A stretch of DNA of 41,046 nucleotides, taken from assembly GCA_018971025.1 (NCBI GenBank), contig JAGWVE010000012.1, positions 1 to 41,046 of the forward strand. The letters run 5' to 3'. A program made the position numbers and the translations under genes. The stretch's first letter is position 1. Every line of letters starts with the position of its first letter. Of the stretch, positions 93 to 12,133 are shown in pieces. The notes below the pieces were generated by a model. That model saw only the letters and a program-made list of their open reading frames with translations. It had not been told where the DNA came from and did no database searches. The DNA comes from Bacteroidota bacterium. Its GTDB lineage: Bacteria; Bacteroidota; Bacteroidia; Chitinophagales; Chitinophagaceae.

Positions 93-1559
93 TTACTGTA
101 AGGAGCTCGTATGTTTTTTTAAGATTCTTTTTCCTTCTGATTTAACGCGGTCCGTTTTTTTAAAAGCCCAAACAATATCACTCGCTTTTTTTCTGGATCG
201 TTCAATGTCAACAATGGGCGAAGGATAATCTTTATCAATGATACAACCATACATTTCCTGTTCAATGGCACTCATTTTCCAAGGTTCATGAATCAGTGAT
301 GCCGGTACGTTTTTGAGTTCTTTGACCCACTGTTTTATAAAAAGCCCTTCACTATCATGTTCTTGCGAGTTTTTAATAGGGTTATAAATCCGAATCGTAT
401 TAATGCCCGTAACGCCTGATTGCATTTGTAACTGTGGGTAATGAATACCGGGCTCATAGTCTAAAAATTGGCGTGCTAAAAAATGAAGTTCCCTCCAATC
501 CTGCCAAAGATTGTACACAAAAAAAGAAACAACCATAGCCCGCATTCTAAAATTAATATAACCCGTTTCTTGTAAACAGCGCATGCATGCATCTACAATA
601 GGAACGCCCGTTTTTCCTTCCTGCCATGCAGTAATATAAGCTTCGTTTTTAGGTTTTATGATGGCATCATAGGCTTTATTGACGTGCTCAAATTCCATTC
701 GACATTCGTCTTCAAATTTTTGAATGAAATGACAATGCCAGTGTAAGCGTGAAATGAAATTAGAAAGTGCCCGCTTATTTTTAGCATTAACGTAAGCTGC
801 AATTGTATATTGATATACCGAGCGCATACTTATATTACCATAGGCTAGATAAGGAGAGATTCTACTACATCCTTTTCTACTCAACAGCGGTTTAGAAATA
901 TGATAACTATAATTTTTATGACGGTCCAGAATAAAGCTTTCTAAATAGCGCCAAGCAGTTGTAGCACCGCCTTTTTGAAAATTTGGATGCGGTGTTGTAA
1001 TGCGTTTTGACAAGTCCGGTCCTTTCAGTGATTCGTATAGTGAAGGATTTAGTGTTACAGTATTCCAGTCATTTTCTGGTGTAACAGCAACGGGCGATGT
1101 CATGGTTTGTTCCCAGCGCTGTTTCCAATTTTTTCTTGACTTTAGTTTTCGAATAACACCATGTATTTGAAATTCTTTCCAAATAATATTTTGTTCAATG
1201 CAAAAAGATTGGATGTCTAGATCGCGGTCGTAAGTTTTTTTATTACCTACTTCTATATGCGAAAACATGTTTTGAATGTTGTAGACTTCAAGTAGACCGC
1301 GTAATACAGGTTTTACTTCATTATAAAAATAATAAAGTCTTGCATTTTTTTTATTGAGTGCTGTTTGTAAGTCTTGGATGGATTCATAAATAAATCGCCA
1401 ATGCCTTTCGTCACTATCTTCCCCAGCCATTATGGAAGGCTCAAAACAATATAGCAAAAGCGTGGGTATATCCGCCTGAATAGCGGCTACAAGTGGCTCA
1501 TGATCCGTTAATCGAAGGTCTCTTTTAAACCAGACAATATTAATTTTTTGCTTTTCCAA
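93..1559 (-). CDS. Photolyase/cryptochrome family protein, divergent FAD pocket
   Basis: 488 aa in the canonical order: an N-terminal alpha/beta photolyase domain (opening [16 protein letters not shown], residues 8-23) followed by a helical FAD domain from about residue 200. The FAD phosphate-binding segment [13 protein letters not shown] (232-244) is clear. The rest of the pocket is unusual. The usual WRE(F/Y) motif reads [13 protein letters not shown], the usual HNRxRM reads INFRMRAM, and residues 373-379 (HYPQLQM) stand where canonical enzymes have N-N-G-G-W-Q-W. The FAD-facing Asn and the FAD-proximal Trp of the electron-transfer chain (E. coli N378, W382) therefore appear replaced. The family uses blue light and reduced FAD to repair pyrimidine dimers or to signal; which applies here cannot be told. 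The gene starts 26 bp after the DUF4249 gene on the same strand, so the two are probably co-transcribed. Confidence 0.9.
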
Positions 1560-1585
1560 AAGAGTTGGTTTGCGGATGAATCTAT

Positions 1586-2380
1586 TTACCGAATCGTAAT
1601 CGTTTTTCGTTGCACGGTATGTGCCGAAAAAATTCCGAGTGCACCCCCTTCTATATTAGATGGCGGATTAGATGGTGCAGTGCCGCCACCCGGTCCTGCG
1701 CCACTTTGTTGATTTAAACTATTGTAGTAGAGGTAACTAGCATTTGAAATACACTGCATTTCTACAAACACATTGTCTTTGAGTTTAACTTTTAAATTAT
1801 CGTCACCACCGCGTAAGGGTCGTTGATTTACTTTACCATTATTAAGGTTATCATCAAATACATGAAACGTTGGATCGAGGGTGTCATTTATTTTTTGAAT
1901 AAAGCGGTAGCTGTTGCCCAGTGTTACGGGATCTGTGTAGACAGGAATAACGCTGTATCTAATTTCTCCATTAAATGGAAAAGTATTGATGCGAAGGCTA
2001 TCTAAATTTACTTTTTTGGGCATGGTAGCCGACGCCGTATATTTTTTTTGATCTACTACTACTTCTAAGTTGTAGGTGCCGCCTTCTATTCCTTTTATTT
2101 TTTGTGTTTTATAAAGGCCATTGCTAACAAAAAGCAAACTGTCTTTAACGCCTGTTTGATCGGAAATGATTACGCGTGCATTGTTAACGCCCACAATTGT
2201 AGTAGGTGTGGTTATCGGGGTAGACAAAGAAAGTTGTACAAAATATGGACCCGCCTGATCTGTAATGCTACCATCAATAACCAGCGTAGGGTTATTATTA
2301 TCTAGTACCAAACTAATTTCTTTGTCACAACCCACTAGTATAGTGGCACAAAACGATATAAGAAATAATATTTTTTTCAT
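1586..2380 (-). CDS. DUF4249 family lipoprotein
   Basis: 264 aa. It opens with a lipoprotein signal, [21 protein letters not shown], with the lipobox Cys at residue 18. The next part (about 30-125) resembles the immunoglobulin-like N-terminal half of DUF4249 proteins: [19 protein letters not shown], then [11 protein letters not shown] and [10 protein letters not shown]. The ending [11 protein letters not shown] is typical of the family. It lies 2 bp after the TonB-dependent receptor gene, the usual partnership in Bacteroidota, which suggests an outer-membrane accessory of that receptor. It is at the short end for the family. The transported substrate is unknown. Confidence 0.82.
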
Positions 2381-2382
2381 GC

Positions 2383-4695
2383 CTAAAATTTAAATTGATA
2401 CGTTACACTTGGAACCCATTTAAAAAGAGCGGTTCTAATAATTTGTGTTCTTGTAGGATTGTTAGGATCGTCTTTAAAACTAATGCGGTACGCATTTTCT
2501 CTACCATATACATTGTACAAACTAAAGTTCCAAGATCCGTGCATTCTTTTGGTTTTGTTTTTTTCGTAGGTAGCGCTAAAATCGAGTCGGTGATAGGCCG
2601 GCATACGATTGGCGTTTCTAGCAGCGTATTGATAAAGTGTTTGACCTTGAAGGGTGTATTTTCCAGTTGGATAGGTAACCGCGTCGCCGGTATTGTAAAC
2701 AAACACACCAGAAATGGACCAGCGCTGGTTTAGATCATAAATACCCACCACAGAAATATCATGGGTTCGATCCTGTCTTGCATTGTACCAATTGTTTCCA
2801 TTAATACCATCAATTTTTCTTTCTGTTTTAGAAAGGGTGTAACCAATCCAACCGGTAAAGCGCCCTTCTTTTTTCTTCAGTAACAACTCTACACCATAAG
2901 CTCTTCCTATGCCATATAATAATACACTTTCAACATCTGAAACCGTATTGATTTCGGCACCATCTTTATAGTCTATTTGATTTTGTAAGTATTTATAGTA
3001 AGCTTCGGCAGTAAATTCAAAATTACTTTTAAATACTTTTGTTACATATCCCACACTCCATTGATCGGCAACTTCTGGTTTAATATTATAGGAATTACCA
3101 ATCCACTGATCGGAAGGGCTAGACGCAACAGCGTTACTTAATAAATGTAAATGTTGAATGTTTCTTGCATAACCCGCTTTAATACTGGTTTCATCATTAA
3201 TGCGGAAGTTGGTGGTAATTCTGGGCTCAGGATTGACATATGTTTTTCCAAAACTTGATCTGCTAAGTTTTACAGACGAATTGACAATCCCATTTTGGTA
3301 GACATTATACACATCTCCACCCATTAAAGTGTACATTGATAGGCGAACACCGTAGTCGATGGTGAATTGACTATTGGCTCTATAATTGTTGGTGAGGTAA
3401 AGTGCGTTTTCGAACCCATTTCTACCCTCTTTAGACACACTATTAATAACGGTTCCGCTAAATGTACTTGGTTTAATCGTGTGTAAAATGGAATTAAAGC
3501 CAAAGCGCAAAGTGTTGGCACCATTAGCATAGAAGGTATAATCTTGTTTGAGGTTTAAATCTTTAATATTGGAATTGATATTAAAATTGGTTTCCCCATT
3601 TTTTAATTTGACGTTGTAATTGTAGTCGCTATAAATTAAAGAAGTATTTAAAAAGAGTTTGTTGCTAATAATTTTATTCCATCTGATTGTACCGGTTTTA
3701 TTACCCCAGTCGATACCAAAGTCTTGACCTAGCCCGAGCTCGTCTCTTCCAAAATATCCCGAAATGTAAATTTTATTTTTTGCGTTGATTTGATAATTGG
3801 CTTTTGCATTTAAATCATAGAAATACAAAATGTTGTCTTTAAATTTTTCGGTTGCTTTTAAAAACACATCGGCGTAGGTTCTTCTACCAGAAAGAATAAA
3901 CGATGATTTATTTTTTTGAAGCGGACCCTCAATACTTAGTTTACTACTAATAAGCCCAAGGCCTCCATTAACTGTATAATTTTGATTGTTGCCTTCTTTC
4001 ATTTTTACATCGAGTACAGATGAAAGCCTGCCACCGTATTGACTGGGGCTATTGCCTTTTATGATGGTCGCATCTTTAATGGCATCACTATTAAAAGTGC
4101 TAAAAAACCCAAGTAAATGCGTGGCATTGTATACGGGTGCTTCATCCAGTAAAATTAAATTTTGATCTGCACTACCGCCGCGCACAAAAAATCCGCTATT
4201 GCCCTCGCCCGCCGATTTTACGCCGGGTAACAATTGTATTGTTTTTAAAAGATCCTTTTCTCCAAAAATGACGGGCACTTTATTAATCGAAGACATATTA
4301 ATGGTTTCGGTTCCCATTTGTGCCTTTGTTAAATTGTCGTTTTTTCTAGACGACTCCACCACCACTTCTTTTAAAACATTTTTTGTTTGTAAATAAAAAT
4401 TAATGGATTGACTGCTGTCTAATTTTATTTTTTGAATCAGCGTTTCATAACCTACTTGAGTTACTACAACAGAGTAATTGCCTTTTGGAAGTGACAGGGA
4501 GTAAAAACCGTACTCATTGGAAATAATACCAGCACTCGGTAATTCCTGTATACGCACCACAGCCTTAATTAAGGATTCGCCGGTTTGTTTGTCGCGTACA
4601 CTACCGCTTAAGACAAGGGTTTGTTGGGCGGTAGCAGTTGCAAAATCTGCCCCAAGGAAAATAAGAAAACAAAAAACATATATTTTATAACGCAT
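2383..4695 (-). CDS. TonB-dependent receptor with carboxypeptidase-like N-terminal domain
   Basis: 770 aa. A signal peptide (to about residue 24) precedes a carboxypeptidase-regulatory-like beta-sandwich (about 27-110, GSVRDKQTGESLIKAVVRI). The plug domain follows (about 125-230, with FFVRGGSADQNLILLDEAP), then a beta-barrel ending in the aromatic residue of VTYQFKF. It imports a bound ligand through the outer membrane using TonB energy. It is first in a minus-strand unit with the DUF4249 lipoprotein. It is not a SusC protein: it is shorter than SusC and has no SusD next to it. Nothing in the sequence or neighbours identifies the ligand. Confidence 0.92.
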   Translation of the reverse strand: MRYKIYVFCFLIFLGADFATATAQQTLVLSGSVRDKQTGESLIKAVVRIQELPSAGIISNEYGFYSLSLPKGNYSVVVTQVGYETLIQKIKLDSSQSINFYLQTKNVLKEVVVESSRKNDNLTKAQMGTETINMSSINKVPVIFGEKDLLKTIQLLPGVKSAGEGNSGFFVRGGSADQNLILLDEAPVYNATHLLGFFSTFNSDAIKDATIIKGNSPSQYGGRLSSVLDVKMKEGNNQNYTVNGGLGLISSKLSIEGPLQKNKSSFILSGRRTYADVFLKATEKFKDNILYFYDLNAKANYQINAKNKIYISGYFGRDELGLGQDFGIDWGNKTGTIRWNKIISNKLFLNTSLIYSDYNYNVKLKNGETNFNINSNIKDLNLKQDYTFYANGANTLRFGFNSILHTIKPSTFSGTVINSVSKEGRNGFENALYLTNNYRANSQFTIDYGVRLSMYTLMGGDVYNVYQNGIVNSSVKLSRSSFGKTYVNPEPRITTNFRINDETSIKAGYARNIQHLHLLSNAVASSPSDQWIGNSYNIKPEVADQWSVGYVTKVFKSNFEFTAEAYYKYLQNQIDYKDGAEINTVSDVESVLLYGIGRAYGVELLLKKKEGRFTGWIGYTLSKTERKIDGINGNNWYNARQDRTHDISVVGIYDLNQRWSISGVFVYNTGDAVTYPTGKYTLQGQTLYQYAARNANRMPAYHRLDFSATYEKNKTKRMHGSWNFSLYNVYGRENAYRISFKDDPNNPTRTQIIRTALFKWVPSVTYQFKF

Positions 4696-4745
4696 AGATA
4701 ATTGTTAAACAATAGAATCTTCAATTGGTTGAATACTATAACGTT

Positions 4746-4760
4746 TAGACCGTTCGTCTA
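4746..4760. promoter_or_regulatory. TetR-type palindrome, candidate operator
   Basis: TAGAC-CGTTC-GTCTA is a perfect 5-bp inverted repeat around 5 bases. Its half-site resembles TAGACCG-like sites bound by many TetR-family repressors. It lies about 50 bp upstream of the TonB-dependent receptor start. Its last three bases double as the stop codon of the SOUL remnant. No TetR gene is in the window, so the regulator is unknown. Confidence 0.35.
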
Positions 4761-4850
4761 TTGTTCGGTCCATTCAATGGGAATAGCAATTTCATTGGTC
4801 CTTGCAATCATTTGATAAGGTGCATTGTAGCCTAGAAATGTATAAAGCTT
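4758..4850 (-). pseudogene. C-terminal remnant of a SOUL heme-binding protein gene
   Basis: On the minus strand, 30 codons run from 4850 to a TAG stop at 4758-4760. They read KLYTFLGYNAPYQ followed by MIARTNEIAIPIEWTEQ. This matches the end of SOUL/heme-binding proteins, where a GY(D/N)xP segment precedes (R)RNE and a short hydrophobic strand. An in-frame TGA sits at 4851-4853, no start codon exists, and the DNA beyond shows no similarity in any frame. The rest of the gene (normally about 180-200 codons) is missing, so this is a deletion remnant. The family assignment rests on the motif only. Confidence 0.6.
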
Positions 4851-4988
4851 TCATGTTGTTGTTTAATAAAATAACAACATATACTTAAATAGGTTCAAAA
4901 TGGGCTAAAGCCCAATATCTTATAGGTTAATAACCCATTTAATTTAATGGTATATTTAAGTCCTATTTTGTGTAAGAACAGCGTGAAC

Positions 4989-6209
4989 ATGGTAAAAAAA
5001 ATTGCAACCAATTTAACTTTTTGGGTATTATTTGCGATCACATCAGGAATACTTGTAGGACATTTTTTTCCTGCTACAGGCGTAGCTATGCAACCACTTG
5101 GAAAATATTTTATTGACGTTATTAAATTATTTATCTATCCCATTATACTACTAACCATCGTAACAGGTATTTGTGGAATGGGTGATTTAAAAAAAGTGGG
5201 AAAAGTTGGTGGTAAAGCACTTATTTATTTTGAAATTATAACAACCCTTGCTTTATTCATTGGTATCTGCGTTGGTTACTTGTTAGAGCCAGGCTCTTCT
5301 GTAAATACTAGTATTGTAGCGAAAGGAGATATTTCAAAATATAGTAGTGGTAATGTTTCTATTTCATGGATTCAATTTTTCCAAGACAATTTGACCATTC
5401 AGGTTTTACTTTTTGCAATCATAGCTGGCATTGTTGTTAGTAAACTAAAAAACAAAGAAACTATTTTACCTAAAGTGTACTTGCTTTCAAAATATGTATT
5501 TAGGGGGCTACATATTGTTATGAAACTCGCGCCCATTGGTGCTTTTGGTGGCATGGCCTTCACCATTGGAAAATATGGTGTTGCTACTTTATTACCACTC
5601 GGAAAATTAATGGCATCTGTATACATTACAATGACATTGTTTGTATTCATTGTTTTAGGTCTTGTATTGCGTTATTATAAAATCAGTATTTGGAAATATT
5701 TGGGATACATCAAAAATGAATTACTCATTGTTTTAGGTACTTCTTCTTCAGAAGCTGCATTACCATCGCTGATGGAAAAGTTAGAACATATGGGATGCCA
5801 CAAATCTGTGGTAGGCTTAGTGGTTCCTGCTGGCTATTCATTTAATTTAGATGGGACTTCTATTTATTTATCCATGGCCATTATATTTTTGGCCCAGGTT
5901 TTTCATATTCAACTTAGTTTGGAGCAAATCATTACCATCATTGGTATTTTAATGGTAACCTCTAAAGGCGCCGCTGGTGTAACAGGCAGCGGTTTTATTA
6001 TTTTGGCTTCTACCCTAACTGCCACCAAGGTAATTCCAATAGAAGGACTTGCATTATTACTAGGAGTAGACCGCTTTATGTCTGAAGCTAGGGCTATAAC
6101 TAATTTTATAGGTAATGGCGTTGCCACTATTTTCATCTCCAACAACGAAAAAATGTTTGACAGGTCTAGGATGTATAAAGCTTTTGGTATGCACAAAAAC
6201 GAACTTTAG
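4989..6209 (+). CDS. dctA: Dicarboxylate:cation symporter, DctA-like (DAACS family)
   Basis: 406 aa from the ATG at 4989; a start at 4947 would add 14 residues that look unlike the family's N-terminus. It has about eight hydrophobic segments plus the re-entrant loops of the glutamate/C4-dicarboxylate symporters. Signatures are GTSSSEAALPSLMEKLE (serine-rich loop), YSFNLDGTSIY (normally NMDGT), TSKGAAGVTGSGF and the closing GVDRFMSEARAITNFIGNGVATI. The last is characteristic of DctA-like members, so C4-dicarboxylates such as succinate, fumarate or malate are the most likely substrates. Amino acids cannot be excluded. It sits in the inner membrane. The next gene starts 28 bp downstream, so read-through into the vWA/MoxR genes is possible. 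Confidence 0.88.
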   Translation: MVKKIATNLTFWVLFAITSGILVGHFFPATGVAMQPLGKYFIDVIKLFIYPIILLTIVTGICGMGDLKKVGKVGGKALIYFEIITTLALFIGICVGYLLEPGSSVNTSIVAKGDISKYSSGNVSISWIQFFQDNLTIQVLLFAIIAGIVVSKLKNKETILPKVYLLSKYVFRGLHIVMKLAPIGAFGGMAFTIGKYGVATLLPLGKLMASVYITMTLFVFIVLGLVLRYYKISIWKYLGYIKNELLIVLGTSSSEAALPSLMEKLEHMGCHKSVVGLVVPAGYSFNLDGTSIYLSMAIIFLAQVFHIQLSLEQIITIIGILMVTSKGAAGVTGSGFIILASTLTATKVIPIEGLALLLGVDRFMSEARAITNFIGNGVATIFISNNEKMFDRSRMYKAFGMHKNEL

Positions 6210-6237
6210 TGCTTACTATTTGTTACTTTAGTTACCT

Positions 6238-7335
6238 ATGATTGGACACCGATTTATCAATTTTGTACCTGGGGAAAACTCAAAATCCAAATTTGAGCAG
6301 ATGCTAGACATCTTTACCCAGCTATTAAACTATACAAGTGGAGACGCTACGGAGGCCTTAGATTGGCTTAACCAACTAGACCGTACCCACAAATTTACCG
6401 ACGATGAGTACGGGGTGGGTGATTTTATAGAAGACCTAAAGCAAAATGGTTACTTAAAAGAAAATCCTCAAGACGGAAGGTTTGCCATTACCGCAAAAAC
6501 CGAACAAACCATTCGTCAAAAAAGCCTCGAAGAGATTTTTGGAAAACTTAAAAAAGGAAAACAAGGAAACCATAGCACCACCAAAGCGGGTCCCACCGGT
6601 GATATCAATTCAGACACCCGCTCGTTTCAGTTTGGTGATTTGATGGAACAAATAGATTTCACAGAGAGCATTAAAAATGCTCAAATTAATAGAGGTGTCG
6701 ATTCTTTTTCGATGCACGAAGATGATTTGGTGATCAGAGAAGCGGATTTTAAAACGCAAACATCTACGGTGCTCATGATTGATATTTCACACTCTATGAT
6801 TTTATATGGAGAAGATAGAATCACGCCTGCAAAAAAAGTGGCGATGGCACTTTGTGAACTGATCACAAAAAAATATCCAAAAGACACCATCGATATTGTG
6901 GTGTTTGGAAACGATGCATGGCAGGTAGAAATTAAAGACCTTCCTTATTTACAAGTAGGACCCTACCATACCAATACCGTTGCTGGGCTTGAGTTAGCGA
7001 TGGATATACTCCGCAAACGTAAAACATCTAACAAGCAAATTTTTATGATTACGGATGGCAAGCCTACTTGTTTAAAAATAGGTGGACGTTATTATAAAAA
7101 CAGTTTTGGATTAGATCGTAAAGTGGTGAACCGTTGTATTAACCTTGCAGCACAATGCAAAAAATTAAAAATTCCGATCACTACTTTTATGATTGCTTCG
7201 GATCCCTATTTGCAAAAGTTTGTAGAAGAGTTTACGGAAATGAATAATGGTAAAGCCTATTTTGCGTCGCTAGACAATTTAGGCAGTTTTATATTTAATG
7301 ATTTTGAAAGCGGTAAAAGAAAAACATTGTATTAA
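6238..7335 (+). CDS. von Willebrand factor type A domain protein (MoxR partner)
   Basis: 365 aa with no signal peptide or membrane segment, so probably cytoplasmic. Residues 1-170 are a mostly helical, charged region with a flexible Gly/Lys/Thr-rich stretch (about 104-122). From about 176 a vWA domain follows with an intact metal-ion-dependent adhesion site: DISHS (182-186), the Thr in HTNT (244-247) and ITDG (271-274). Such proteins pair with MoxR AAA+ ATPases in chaperone-like or metal-inserting machines, in the manner of magnesium chelatase D with I subunits. The AAA+ gene begins 2 bp after its stop. The target of this pair is unknown; the downstream genes raise the possibility of flavoproteins. 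Confidence 0.85.
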   Translation: MIGHRFINFVPGENSKSKFEQMLDIFTQLLNYTSGDATEALDWLNQLDRTHKFTDDEYGVGDFIEDLKQNGYLKENPQDGRFAITAKTEQTIRQKSLEEIFGKLKKGKQGNHSTTKAGPTGDINSDTRSFQFGDLMEQIDFTESIKNAQINRGVDSFSMHEDDLVIREADFKTQTSTVLMIDISHSMILYGEDRITPAKKVAMALCELITKKYPKDTIDIVVFGNDAWQVEIKDLPYLQVGPYHTNTVAGLELAMDILRKRKTSNKQIFMITDGKPTCLKIGGRYYKNSFGLDRKVVNRCINLAAQCKKLKIPITTFMIASDPYLQKFVEEFTEMNNGKAYFASLDNLGSFIFNDFESGKRKTLY

Positions 7336-7337
7336 TT

Positions 7338-8894
7338 ATGAGCAAGCAAATCGATATAACAAAAATTGTAACATTAGGTGATTTAAAAAAATCGGGGTAT
7401 CAGCCAAAATCTATAAAAGATGAAGTGCGTGATAATTTAATTGCCAGCATTCAAAATAAAGAAAACGCTTTTGAAGGAATATTGGGTTATGAAGACACAG
7501 TAATACCAGATGTGGAGCGCGCACTACTAAGTAGGCATAATATCTTGTTTTTAGGGCTTCGCGGCCAGGCTAAAACCAGGATGGCACGCCAAATGGTAGA
7601 CCTACTAGACGAATACATTCCTACCATTGCTGGAAGCGAAGTAAACGATGATCCCCTGCAACCGCTAAGTGGCTTTGCTGTAGACTTAATAGCTGAGCAT
7701 GGTGATGAAACCCCTATTCATTGGGTGCATAGAAGTGCTCGTTATGGTGAAAAACTAGCCACCCCGGACGTAAGTGTGTCTGATTTAATTGGTGATATTG
7801 ACCCTATTAAAGCGGCCAACTTAAAACTGAGTTTTGCCGATGAAAAAGTAATTCACTATGGTATTATTCCAAGAAGCAATAGAGGCATTTTTGTGATTAA
7901 TGAATTACCCGATTTGCAAGCTAGAATTCAGGTTTCCTTATTTAATATTTTACAAGAAGGTGATATCCAAATTAGAGGTTTTAAACTTCGTATGCCACTT
8001 GATATTTTGTTTGTGTTTACTGCTAACCCCGAAGACTATACCAATAGAGGAAGTATTGTAACACCGTTAAAAGATAGAATCGAAAGTCAGATATTAACGC
8101 ACTATCCAAAAACAATTGAAACATCACTTGCCATTACAGAGCAAGAAGCTAATATAAGCGCTGCGCAAAAAGAAAAAGTGGAAGTGAGTGATTTAGTAAA
8201 AAGACTTATTGAGCAGGTTTCTTTTGAAGCAAGAACCAACGAGTTTGTAGATAAAAAAAGTGGCGTGAGTGCGCGTTTAACCATTGCTGCATATGAAGCA
8301 GCAGTGAGCAGTGCAGAAAGACGTGCAATTATTCATGGTCAAAAACAAACACAGGTTTGGATAAGTGATTTATCGGGTATTATACCTGCTATCACCGGAA
8401 AAATAGAACTGGTATATGAAGGAGAACAAGAGGGTCCTTACGAAGTAGCACTTAACTTATTAAACAAATCAATTCGTACTTTATTTGTTACCTATTTTCC
8501 CAATCCGGATGATGTAAAAAAACGAAAGGCGCCTAAAAAATCAGCTGCCAATACACCTGAGCAAAAGCAACCTGAAAACCCGTATAATGCTATCACCAAA
8601 TGGTTTGACGCAGGCAACCACCTCGATTTGTTTTTGGATATGAAAGACGAAGACAAAATAATTGAACTCTATAAAGTGGACGGTTTATTTGGGATTGTTA
8701 AAAAACATTTTCCGCAAGCTGGCGAAAAACAATCGGCATTGCTCATGGAGTTTGTACTTCACGGACTTTCTTCTTATTCTATGATCAGTAAAAAAATGAT
8801 TGACGGAAAAATTGAGTTTAATGATATGATGGGAAGCATGATTAACCTAGGAGCAATGGGTATGGACGACGATACTTATAACGATTATGCGTAA
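7338..8894 (+). CDS. MoxR/ChlI-type AAA+ ATPase with Asn in Walker B
   Basis: 518 aa. Walker A is GLRGQAKT (73-80). The Walker B strand is GIFVINELPDLQ (183-194), with Asn188 where most AAA+ proteins have Asp before the catalytic Glu189. Sensor-1-like FVFTANPEDYTNRG (225-238) and an arginine-finger-type PLKDRIES (243-250) follow. The fold resembles magnesium chelatase I and MoxR proteins. The C-terminal 110 residues, after a Lys/Pro/Gln-rich linker (395-415), are a separate helical domain. It should act with the vWA protein 2 bp upstream as an ATP-driven remodeller. Its last 8 bases overlap the start of the photolyase gene, which implies translational coupling. Confidence 0.85.
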   Translation: MSKQIDITKIVTLGDLKKSGYQPKSIKDEVRDNLIASIQNKENAFEGILGYEDTVIPDVERALLSRHNILFLGLRGQAKTRMARQMVDLLDEYIPTIAGSEVNDDPLQPLSGFAVDLIAEHGDETPIHWVHRSARYGEKLATPDVSVSDLIGDIDPIKAANLKLSFADEKVIHYGIIPRSNRGIFVINELPDLQARIQVSLFNILQEGDIQIRGFKLRMPLDILFVFTANPEDYTNRGSIVTPLKDRIESQILTHYPKTIETSLAITEQEANISAAQKEKVEVSDLVKRLIEQVSFEARTNEFVDKKSGVSARLTIAAYEAAVSSAERRAIIHGQKQTQVWISDLSGIIPAITGKIELVYEGEQEGPYEVALNLLNKSIRTLFVTYFPNPDDVKKRKAPKKSAANTPEQKQPENPYNAITKWFDAGNHLDLFLDMKDEDKIIELYKVDGLFGIVKKHFPQAGEKQSALLMEFVLHGLSSYSMISKKMIDGKIEFNDMMGSMINLGAMGMDDDTYNDYA

Positions 8895-10374
8895 GAAAGC
8901 CTTTGTTATATTCCCCCACCAGCTTTTCAAAAACATATCGTTACTAGAAAAAGGAACGTCCATTTTTTTAGTGGAAGAACACCTCTTTTTTAGACAATAT
9001 TCATTTCATAAAGAAAAACTGATACTCCATAGGGCTTCCATGAAAGCCTATGAGCAGTATCTTATACAGGAAGGCTACCCCGTAAACTATATTGATACCA
9101 ACCATCCTTTACAAGATTGCAGGTTATTAATGGAAGCGCTGGCGAAAGAAAAATATACAAGCGTTAGCACCATTGATCCAGTCGATTATTTATTAATGAG
9201 GCGTATTAAACGGGCCTGTGCTTCTAATAATATAGCGTTGCAGGTATTTGACAGCCCCAATTTTTTAAATACAATTGATGGCACAAAAAATTATTTTGAC
9301 GCCAAAAAAAAATATTTCCAAACCGATTTTTATACGGCGCAAAGAAAGCAGCGTAAAATACTATTAACCCCCGACGAAAAACCTGTAGGCGGTAAATGGA
9401 CCTATGATGCAGAAAACAGGGCTAAATTTCCTAAAAAAGAAACGGTACCAAATTTAGATTTTGAAAAGGATAATAGCTACCTACAAGAAGCGGAAACGTA
9501 TGTCCAAAAACACTTTCCTAAAAATTATGGGGAGGTCAATACGAATCACTTGTTTGCGACAAATTTTTTGAGTGCCCAAAAATGGCTCGATCAATTTATG
9601 AATGAGCGTTTTGAAAAATTTGGCATCTATGAAGACGCGATTGTAGAAAAAGAATCGGTTTTATACCATTCTGTTTTATCGCCTATGCTCAATATAGGAT
9701 TAATAACACCTGAGCAAATCATTGATAAAGCATTGAAAACCGCAGCATCAAAAGAAATCCCACTCAACTCACTAGAAGGATTTATTAGACAAATAGTTGG
9801 TTGGCGTGAATTTATACGACTTGTTTATGAGCGTGAAGGAACGAAACAAAGAACAACCAATTACTGGCAGTTTACAAGAAAAATTCCAAAAACGTTTTGG
9901 ACCGGAGACACCGGCATTGCGCCCATTGATTGTACCATTAAAAAGATTTTGAAAACAGGGTATGCGCATCATATTGAAAGACTGATGGTGCTAGGCAATT
10001 TTATGTTACTCTGTGAATTTGATCCGGATGAAGTGCACAAATGGTTTATGGAAATGTTTATTGATGCTTACGACTGGGTGATGGTGCCCAATATATATGG
10101 CATGACTCAGTTTGCAGATGGTGGACTGATGACCACCAAGCCTTATATCAGTGGCAGTAACTATCTAATGAAAATGAGCGATTATGAAAAGGGAAGCTGG
10201 CAACCCATTTGGGATGGATTGTTTTGGAGGTTTATGCATGTGCACCGTGATTTCTTTTTACAAAATCCACGAATAGGCATGCTCGTAAAAACATTTGATA
10301 AAATGCCCGAAGAAAAACGAAATGCACATTTACAAAATGCCAATCAATATTTACAAGATTTAGACAAGCAGTAA
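8887..10374 (+). CDS. FeS-BCP-lineage photolyase/cryptochrome (COG3046) lacking three of four cluster cysteines
   Basis: 495 aa. It begins with FVIFPHQLF (7-15), as in the prokaryotic (6-4) photolyase PhrB/CryB group, and continues with EGFIRQIVGWREFIRLVY (297-314), YAHHIERLMVLGNF (359-372, with the His pair used in (6-4) repair) and GMTQFADGGLMTTKPYIS (405-422). Members normally bind a [4Fe-4S] cluster through four Cys. Here Cys349 is kept, but the later SDYCKGCxY-type motif reads SDYEKGSWQ (431-439), and the fourth Cys, with its short insertion, is absent. A cluster therefore looks impossible in the usual form. The family repairs (6-4) photoproducts or senses light with FAD and a lumazine antenna. 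It overlaps the MoxR gene by 8 bp and is followed after 3 bp by the flavin reductase. Confidence 0.9.
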   Translation: MRKKAFVIFPHQLFKNISLLEKGTSIFLVEEHLFFRQYSFHKEKLILHRASMKAYEQYLIQEGYPVNYIDTNHPLQDCRLLMEALAKEKYTSVSTIDPVDYLLMRRIKRACASNNIALQVFDSPNFLNTIDGTKNYFDAKKKYFQTDFYTAQRKQRKILLTPDEKPVGGKWTYDAENRAKFPKKETVPNLDFEKDNSYLQEAETYVQKHFPKNYGEVNTNHLFATNFLSAQKWLDQFMNERFEKFGIYEDAIVEKESVLYHSVLSPMLNIGLITPEQIIDKALKTAASKEIPLNSLEGFIRQIVGWREFIRLVYEREGTKQRTTNYWQFTRKIPKTFWTGDTGIAPIDCTIKKILKTGYAHHIERLMVLGNFMLLCEFDPDEVHKWFMEMFIDAYDWVMVPNIYGMTQFADGGLMTTKPYISGSNYLMKMSDYEKGSWQPIWDGLFWRFMHVHRDFFLQNPRIGMLVKTFDKMPEEKRNAHLQNANQYLQDLDKQ

Positions 10375-10377
10375 CCT

Positions 10378-10992
10378 ATGAAATCGACCTTAACACTTGA
10401 ACAGTTAATGGAAATGGAGCAGCGTCAAAGAGCCCATCTAATCAATAGTATTGGTGGCTTTAAAAGTGTTGCCCTCATTGGTTCTATAGACCTACAAGGT
10501 CAAACCAATGTGGCTATCTTTAGTTCTATTGTACATATTGGTTCTAATCCACCATTACTAAGTTTTATTATGCGCCCAGATTCTGTAGAGCGTCATACCC
10601 TTGCTAATATATTGGAAACGGGCTTTTATACCATCAACCATATTAATGCCCAAATATATGAGCAGGCTCATCAAACATCTGCTCGCTATCCAAAATCAAT
10701 GTCTGAATTTGATGCCACTGGTTTAACGCCACAATTTAAAAATGATTTTGTGGCTCCATTTGTTGAGGAGAGTCAGATTCAATTGGCGATGGAATTTAAA
10801 GAGCGTTTAGATATTACTATCAATCAAACCATCATGATTATTGGTGAGGTTAAAGCCATCCATTTTCCGTCCGATTGCTTAGCTCCAGACGGTTTTATGA
10901 ATATTGAAAAAGCTGGCACTATTACTGTTGCTGGTTTAGACAGCTATCACACCACACAACCCCTGCAAAGACTACCTTATGCCAAACCTTAA
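10378..10992 (+). CDS. Flavin reductase-like FMN-binding protein
   Basis: 204 aa, a single flavin-reductase-like split-barrel domain. Recognisable parts are the early GGFKSVALIGSIDLQGQTNVAIFSS (26-50), the strand IGSNPPLLSFIMRP (53-66) and THTLANILETGFYTINH-like sequence (about 72-87). Such proteins bind FMN and reduce free flavin with NAD(P)H, or act as flavin-dependent oxidoreductases. It lies between two photolyase genes, 3 bp after one and overlapping the other by 14 bp, so supply of reduced flavin to photolyases is a natural guess. It is only a guess: photolyases normally become reduced by light-driven electron transfer. Confidence 0.85.
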   Translation: MKSTLTLEQLMEMEQRQRAHLINSIGGFKSVALIGSIDLQGQTNVAIFSSIVHIGSNPPLLSFIMRPDSVERHTLANILETGFYTINHINAQIYEQAHQTSARYPKSMSEFDATGLTPQFKNDFVAPFVEESQIQLAMEFKERLDITINQTIMIIGEVKAIHFPSDCLAPDGFMNIEKAGTITVAGLDSYHTTQPLQRLPYAKP

Positions 10993-12133
10993 TATGCAAA
11001 ATGAGCAGCCTTTATTTCCTACAGATTATGTAAGTATCATGCAGCGTGTTGATGCGGTTAATCCTATCAAGTATGCAAAGACAAGAAATTTTATTCATGG
11101 AGATGTCACTTATTTATCGGCCTATATAGCTAGAGGTGTTATCAGTGTAAGGCAAATAATGGAGGCTGTTTTGCAAAAAGGATACAAGCCTTATGCCATT
11201 GAAAAATTTTTACAAGAACTTGCATGGCGTGAATATTATCAGCGTGTATGGCAAATAAAAAAAGAGGATATTTTTTCTGATTTAAAACAGGAGCAGCCTG
11301 ATTATTTACATTATCAAATACCTGCTGCTATTGTACATGCGGCAACGGGTATTCAAATTTTAGACAATCAAATTAATGCATTCTATACAACTGGTTATTT
11401 GCATAACCATATCAGAATGTATTTGGCTTCTATTGTTTGTAATAATGCAAAATCACACTGGCTTGCTCCAGCACGATGGATGTACTATCACTTATTAGAT
11501 GGAGACCTAGCAAGTAATAGTTGTAGTTGGCAGTGGGTGGCCGGTAGTTTTTCATCTAAAAAATATTACTGCAACCAGGAAAATATTAATAAGTATACAA
11601 GTACAAATCAGCAGCAAACATTTTTAGACCATAGTTATGAGTATATTGCTACAATGCCCGTCCCTGCTGTATTACAAGAGACATTGACGGAAAACTATGA
11701 AACTATTTTACCAGCAACAGCAGCCCCAAAACTTGATACAACAAAGCCTACTTTATTATACAATGGATACAATTTAGACCCACTGTGGAGGTCTTCTGAA
11801 AATGTAAATCGTGTTTTATTGTTAGAGCCATCTCATTTTAAAAAATATCCGGTTAGTAAAAAAGTAATTGATTTTATGATGGCTCTCTCCACCAATATTG
11901 ATGGTATTGTGATCTATACAGGTGAAGTAGATGCATTAACAAAACAATACGAAAATGGTGACCTAACCATTTCAAATGCATTTATTTCAAAAGAACATCC
12001 TGCTTTTGACTATTACCCGGGTACAAAAGATTGTAGAGATTGGATGTTTGCTAAAGTTGAAGGTTATTATCCTTCATTTTTTAGTTTTTGGAAAAAAGGA
12101 GCACAGGCGCTTTCAAAAAATAAAACAAATTAA
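10979..12133 (+). CDS. Photolyase-like FAD-domain protein, apparently circularly permuted
   Basis: 384 aa from 10979; an equally good start is the ATG at 10994 (residue 6), one base after the flavin reductase stop. There is no N-terminal alpha/beta domain. The FAD-binding domain begins almost at once: FPTDYVSIMQRV (13-24), TYLSAYIARGVIS (44-56), ELAWREYYQRVWQ (80-92), HNHIRMYLAS (142-151), DGDLASN (174-180) and SWQWVAGSF (183-191). The FAD-proximal Trp region is thus intact. After a linker, residues 255-378 form a second globular region (LLYNGYNLDPLW, RVLLLEPSHFKKYP, DGIVIYTGE, then DWMFAKVEGYYPSFFSFW). Its strand/helix alternation resembles the photolyase antenna domain placed at the C-terminus. 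Repair specificity is unknown. Confidence 0.85.
   Translation: MPNLNMQNEQPLFPTDYVSIMQRVDAVNPIKYAKTRNFIHGDVTYLSAYIARGVISVRQIMEAVLQKGYKPYAIEKFLQELAWREYYQRVWQIKKEDIFSDLKQEQPDYLHYQIPAAIVHAATGIQILDNQINAFYTTGYLHNHIRMYLASIVCNNAKSHWLAPARWMYYHLLDGDLASNSCSWQWVAGSFSSKKYYCNQENINKYTSTNQQQTFLDHSYEYIATMPVPAVLQETLTENYETILPATAAPKLDTTKPTLLYNGYNLDPLWRSSENVNRVLLLEPSHFKKYPVSKKVIDFMMALSTNIDGIVIYTGEVDALTKQYENGDLTISNAFISKEHPAFDYYPGTKDCRDWMFAKVEGYYPSFFSFWKKGAQALSKNKTN

Follow-up and report, generated by a model that had tools for sequence, protein, structure and literature searches.

A further, mostly Bacteroidota branch of reversed-order photolyases whose C-terminal domain is most likely a displaced antenna domain

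Photolyases with the FAD domain in front have been described in several bacteria. According to a study in mBio (PMC9426592, 2022), Phr4/Phr5 and Phr6 of Synechococcus/Cyanobium show a 'reverse domain order', Phr4 and Phr5 being adjacent, with frameshifting to a single protein left open by the authors. In that study phr4 was disrupted in Synechococcus and phr4/phr5 were expressed in E. coli, where they protected against UV-C without a significant difference between light and dark and had little effect after UV-B. The study also describes Phr7, which consists of an FAD domain and a Z-domain and is named as being of the same kind as the short photolyase-like proteins (NewPHL/SPL) of Dinoroseobacter shibae and Methylobacterium mesophilicum. 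SPLs are described, after Xu et al. 2021, as being without an N-terminal domain (PMC9649867; the SPL class is also used in PMC9178010), and the D. shibae NewPHL is reported in PMC8948257 to have a 'mere Trp dyad'. The kind is therefore already published (NewPHL, SPL, Phr6), and the remark in the initial annotation that it knew of no experiments on proteins of this sort does not hold, since NewPHL/SPL and Phr4/5/6 are published as inverted photolyases with experiments.

The gene described here, found in a window of 41,046 nucleotides (the whole stretch of DNA analysed), adds to this kind another branch, most of whose members are Bacteroidota, and we consider it probable, at about 85%, that its product is a photolyase with the inverted topology of NewPHL/SPL acting by the mechanism proposed below. 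By the published descriptions, with which the window clade was compared, the protein shares with NewPHL/SPL the leading FAD domain, the lack of an N-terminal domain and the Trp dyad, and with Phr7 the lack of FeS cysteines. The clade differs from NewPHL/SPL in being separately supported in the tree, mostly Bacteroidota and often located near genes for FeS-BCP photolyases. Phr4/5/6 likewise carry the FAD domain before the antenna domain, partly in a split form that resembles pairs described below, but Phr4/6 have four FeS cysteines and the window type has none. A literature search, covering mainly titles and the beginnings of abstracts and few subscription papers, returned no paper reporting the Bacteroidota clade of the window or antenna genes that stand unlinked.

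The 384-aa ORF (Table 1) is a real and conserved reversed-order photolyase gene. Pfam found FAD_binding_7 at residues 77-225 (E 3.1e-21) and no match in the ORF to the antenna domain DNA_photolyase (PF00875) or to the DPRP domain PF04244; FeS-BCPs, in contrast, have a DPRP N-terminal domain and four cysteines. The ORF shares its first 14 bases with the 3' end of a flavin reductase-like gene and, among 79 homologous GTDB loci scored with an FAD-domain HMM, 77 had fewer than 60 open codons upstream, which leaves no space for a domain ahead of the FAD domain; the claim that the protein begins directly with the FAD domain is thereby borne out. At these loci a median of 12 open residues precedes the FAD domain and 134-153 follow it (80 loci fetched; L094 was omitted because the FAD domain itself is cut, and L092, which was scored, is cut by the contig end just before the FAD domain). 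The two exceptions, L110 and L106, have 79 and 280 open codons upstream, respectively, which read like non-coding read-through. The possibility that the ORF is a classical photolyase that has lost its start was ruled out by the short upstream frames of the homologues. Moreover, all 79 scored loci carry the fused form with FAD and C-terminal domain, and 54 homologues among the best 80 are collinear with the window protein at 53-78% identity. A full-length homologue is present in 22 of 98 sampled genomes of the family (own genome counted), showing that the ORF is not a chance one. AlphaFold2 modelled the whole protein with a mean pLDDT of 93.3 and a pTM of 0.91 (55-row alignment), with strands and helices spanning residues 258-383; the linker between the domains is longer in the same-genus homologue G087.

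Table 1. Location of the photolyase gene, its parts, its neighbours and related loci
Feature	Location	Strand	Evidence
Reversed-order photolyase gene, 384 aa	10979..12133	+	ATG ORF, Pfam, AlphaFold2
FAD/catalytic domain, residues 13-235	11015..11683	+	Pfam, VIA, alignments with PhrB
DGDLASNSCSWQWV, residues 174-187	11498..11539	+	phmmer alignment with PhrB
Interdomain linker, residues 236-257	11684..11749	+	AlphaFold2
C-terminal alpha/beta domain, residues 258-383, most likely displaced antenna-type	11750..12127	+	AlphaFold2, VIA, profiles
Flavin reductase-like gene (PF01613)	10378..10992	+	Pfam
FeS-BCP-type (prokaryotic 6-4) photolyase, DPRP and FAD domain	8887..10374	+	Pfam
Metallophosphoesterase gene, L125	2873-3588		annotated
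Metallophosphoesterase gene, L152	3384-4562		by reading
Metallophosphoesterase gene, L180	1425-2342		by reading
G484, FAD-only gene	L153 2769-3551		
G484, antenna ORF	L180 2367-2825		
G511, FAD-only gene	L154 3818-4597		
G511, antenna ORF	L181 2303-2746		
G642, FAD-only gene	L175		
G642, antenna ORF	L182 2349-2795		

In the window the gene order is FeS-BCP, flavin reductase, reversed photolyase. Counted as lower bounds, some contigs being short, an FeS-BCP homologue was found in at least 55 of the 80 loci (in 50 of them less than 2 kb away and in the same orientation) and a flavin reductase in at least 23, and 18 loci lacked both of these as well as any homologue of the photolyase at window 93-1559. 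The proximity suggests that FeS-BCP and the reversed photolyase form a pair for (6-4) and CPD repair. At 6238-12133, genes for a VWA protein, an AAA protein (MoxR-like by reading), the FeS-BCP, the flavin reductase and the reversed photolyase lie head to tail, separated by gaps of few bases or overlapping, and are probably an operon. Another photolyase/cryptochrome of classical domain order is encoded at 93-1559 on the minus strand; this protein and six relatives have His at the position of PhrB N378 and no equivalents of W382, W384, N341 and M345, suggesting that it is perhaps not a CPD photolyase. The 2.0-Mb assembly has four FAD_binding_7 genes (window 93-12133 and G000:C46), three of them within about 12 kb.

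Residues 7-235 of the AlphaFold2 model match photolyases, with E. coli PhrB, a class I CPD photolyase, aligned by VIA at Z 17.3 over 218 residues and 2.8 Å. The DGDLASN and SWQWVAG motifs, which the initial annotation had singled out, occupy residues 174-180 and 183-189 and align with PhrB D372-N378 and W382/W384 (D174 and D176 with D372 and D374, N180 with N378, W184 with W382, W186 with W384). PhrB residues E274, W277, N341, R344, M345, W359, D372, D374, N378, W382 and W384 are identical in the window protein, which thus shares active-site and FAD residues with the class I enzyme, and the CPD-type active site comprises E80, W83, N143, M147, N180, W184 and W186. These positions are invariant across the 55-row alignment; in a 66-row alignment, one of 31 window-type rows has Q instead of E274. 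Besides the antenna domain at the opposite end, the window protein differs from PhrB at R342, replaced by His144, and at W306, replaced by E105. The W306 column, which lies ten residues ahead of W316 in 12 of 13 class I rows as in PhrB, holds W in all 13 class I rows versus none of 46 reversed, split or FAD-only rows (66-row alignment), 45 of which have an N-H-x-R-M signature in common. A Trp dyad is therefore present instead of a triad, the W382 and W359 equivalents being kept and the W306 equivalent gone, in agreement with the dyad of the D. shibae NewPHL.

In the mechanism proposed, the N-terminal helical domain would bind FAD, blue light would excite the reduced FAD, and electron transfer would split cyclobutane pyrimidine dimers, with the tryptophan dyad W184-W161, rather than a triad as is usual, serving for photoreduction. 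The alpha/beta domain at the C-terminus, which would descend from the antenna domain placed first in classical photolyases, is predicted to pack on the FAD domain, most likely as a structural lid or possibly for light harvesting. Single-stranded DNA is perhaps preferred, by analogy with NewPHL. Compatible with this reading, and favoured by the probable antenna ancestry of the domain and by a conserved motif at its second strand (LLLEPSHF..YPVS.KV), is a true antenna that would hold a second chromophore and transfer energy to FAD; we regard it as doubtful, because the domain has a length of just about 125 residues and a divergent sequence, no binding site can be assigned, and work on NewPHL reportedly gives the C-terminal domain a sealing role.

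As to the substrate, CPD is suggested by the class I-like N143 and M147. H144 in place of PhrB R342 would fit a (6-4) photolyase or a light sensor lacking repair activity, and in PMC9426592 (6-4) activity is predicted for the related Phr4/5 from their FeS cysteines; such a protein is unlikely here, however, as neither FeS cysteine motif occurs in any of 140 window-type ORFs (a total that includes repeats of a gene found at more than one locus), N143 and M147 match class I CPD photolyases, and an FeS-BCP, the known prokaryotic (6-4) type, adjoins the reversed photolyase gene.

The initial annotation had taken the C-terminal part for a displaced antenna domain and proposed a fold search with this part alone. 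Modelled by itself (residues 249-384, 28-row alignment), it adopts an alpha/beta fold with a pLDDT of 89.2. Foldseek gave nothing at E ≤ 0.001, its top match being to an unrelated protein at E 0.16, and the 50 matches listed include no photolyase, but VIA-align, run on the 1000 best Foldseek chains, placed photolyase antenna domains at the top: the V. cholerae (6-4) photolyase antenna domain came first as 8a1h (residues 21-152, 2.6 Å over 100 residues) at Z 7.5, a value within the range that the tool calls common for models lacking a clear match, and second as 7ykn (residues 2-132, Z 7.4), followed by PhrB (Z 6.7). Among the 23 VIA rows at Z ≥ 5, 14 were photolyases or cryptochromes whose aligned part starts in the N-terminal domain, pointing to a moderate likeness of the predicted fold to antenna domains. 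In several rows the alignment extends to chain residues 362-421; there the last helix was probably superposed on part of the FAD domain, and its position is therefore uncertain.

The antenna ancestry was traced mainly through intermediates. The intermediates INTERMEDIATES are other photolyases without an N-terminal domain carried by plasmids, and three Deinococcus plasmids encode a fused, FAD-first photolyase, with PF00875 matched below the Pfam cut-off in two of the three C-terminal parts (E 7e-4 and 1e-3) and not at all in the third. In Deinococcus sp. QL22 the FAD and antenna parts are adjacent genes with a four-base overlap (L111 2869-4160), the second ORF matching PF00875 with an E of 2.3e-4 that again falls short of the Pfam threshold, and the Bacteroidota genome G369 has a like pair with a four-base overlap (L152 2087-3321; antenna ORF E 0.017). 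All eight Deinococcus-type, split and FAD-only proteins have FeS cysteine motifs. A metallophosphoesterase gene adjoins the Deinococcus-type photolyase or antenna ORF in three phyla.

PF00875 was matched by none of 28 C-terminal domains homologous to that of the window protein, and the direct profile match to classical antenna domains was weak and covered part of the domain (E 0.034-0.035, score 18.99, barely above the 18.37 of unrelated controls). Classical and FeS-BCP antenna domain profiles also match each other weakly (E 0.035), and distance may thus explain the weak direct match. Among 52 profiles, the set of eight Deinococcus-type domains ranked first against a profile of 111 homologous C-terminal domains (E 2.7e-5), over 33 columns that comprise the second strand and the next helix. 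In another run the Deinococcus-type domain ranked first of 53 (E 0.003, 97 columns), and the built-in comparison A2-A3 of smaller alignments covered the last helix only (12 columns, E 0.0021). Between the Deinococcus-type profile and that of classical antenna domains the match in turn reached E 5.6e-11 (136 columns), and E 2.1e-11 (140 columns) with eight members. Of the 48 control profiles, seven were inspected by eye; ctl_12 was left out of the 52-profile run as it was found to consist of FeS-BCP photolyases, and before its removal ranked fifth against the Deinococcus-type domain and first against the alphaproteobacterial domain, the latter match covering its C-terminal columns and not its antenna domain. 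Other Pfam identities were rejected: a CBM-like match was sub-threshold (E 0.02-0.11) in one of 28 members, and matches to TagH_C (E 0.0038), DUF1877 and Antirestrict, each in a single member, were taken as chance.

These comparisons support the order of FAD domain first and putative antenna-type domain last, and the C-terminal domain is most likely a displaced antenna domain linked to the classical one through intermediates; of the earlier claim, the ancestry thus stands by way of the intermediates and the fold moderately, and the direct profile link is weak. That an unrelated Rossmann-like domain, antenna-like in fold only, was independently recruited would agree with the absence of antenna matches in Pfam and Foldseek and with the direct score close to that of the controls, but is very unlikely given that the Deinococcus-type domain ranks first in both runs and is itself an antenna domain, and that it takes the same position behind an FAD domain that is itself homologous, with Deinococcus P0005 aligning through both domains with homologues such as L071. 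The fetched alphaproteobacterial proteins, which we take to be NewPHL, have a C-terminal domain that did not match the window-type profile (E 0.31 and 0.24), leaving a 'Z-domain' identity of the window domain without support. This alphaproteobacterial domain matched classical antenna domains weakly (E 0.012, behind two other profiles), and the protein gave no close match in the PDB, the best being ordinary photolyases (E 1.9e-16).

FAD and antenna parts also occur as unlinked genes. Three Acidobacteriota genomes (G484, G511 and G642) encode the FAD part alone, a protein of about 260 aa with FeS cysteines, and the fetched 5.5-7.5 kb surrounding the gene contain no antenna-like ORF. All three carry in addition a free-standing antenna ORF that shares 40-42% identity with its Deinococcus counterpart and lies about 1.45, 0.99 and 0.97 Mb away, respectively, in coordinates of the same contig. 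By reading, the antenna ORF is flanked by tRNA thiouridylase-like and metallophosphoesterase-like genes in L180 and L182. Among 297 sampled genomes of the phylum, with up to 13 candidates scored per genome, an antenna ORF at E ≤ 1e-6 was present in these three only, as was a Deinococcus-type FAD part at E < 1e-60; four more Acidobacteriota genomes match at 1e-31 to 1e-36 via window-type or alphaproteobacterial-type proteins. The three genomes are close relatives and therefore count as one or two events, not three. It is possible, and we put it forward tentatively, that the reversed lineage includes two-subunit photolyases made from separate or unlinked genes, and that the fused ones are such subunits joined in the order opposite to the classical one, the antenna having been attached twice at opposite ends. 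The circular permutation suggested at the outset applies at the level of whole domains only. Given the split and unlinked pairs, a route by fission and later refusion, or one from an ancestral enzyme of two subunits, is just as likely as a classical permutation.

A tree had been proposed to see whether one clade shares the reversed order, and in a 75-row FAD-domain tree the 31 window-type rows indeed formed one group (99/99). FeS-BCPs, on a very long branch (6.9 changes per column), fell on the reversed side, so that this tree does not support a single origin of the reversed order. In a reduced tree, which omits FeS-BCPs and the divergent 'OTHERcan' canonical rows and whose bootstrap had not settled, the 46 rows of reversed, split or FAD-only type fell on one side of a 100/100 branch and the 13 class I rows on the other. 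Grouping of the window clade with the alphaproteobacterial NewPHL-like proteins (p-AU 0.343) or with the Deinococcus type (p-AU 0.378) was in each case neither rejected nor established. A tblastn scan of GTDB gave 518 relatives at E ≤ 1e-3; the analysis covers the 80 best of these, and the remainder may include ordinary photolyases. Full-length homologues were present in 17 of 296 genomes of the phylum (rows at E < 1e-100, search cut-off 1e-25), and Acidobacteriota members exist as well (L106, L110, G634 and G658). In genome G194, a 100-aa ORF (L156 3483-3785, minus strand) holds the first third of the FAD domain only and is perhaps a broken copy of a window-type gene.

The window clade widens the inverted group across Bacteroidota and into Acidobacteriota, and ties its own C-terminal domain, which most likely is an antenna domain, to that of classical photolyases. 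Reversed-order photolyases bear on the origin of the photolyase/cryptochrome family, in which the antenna may have started out as an independent partner or may have been added later, and the unlinked FAD and antenna genes would allow a direct test of whether a photolyase works as two free subunits.
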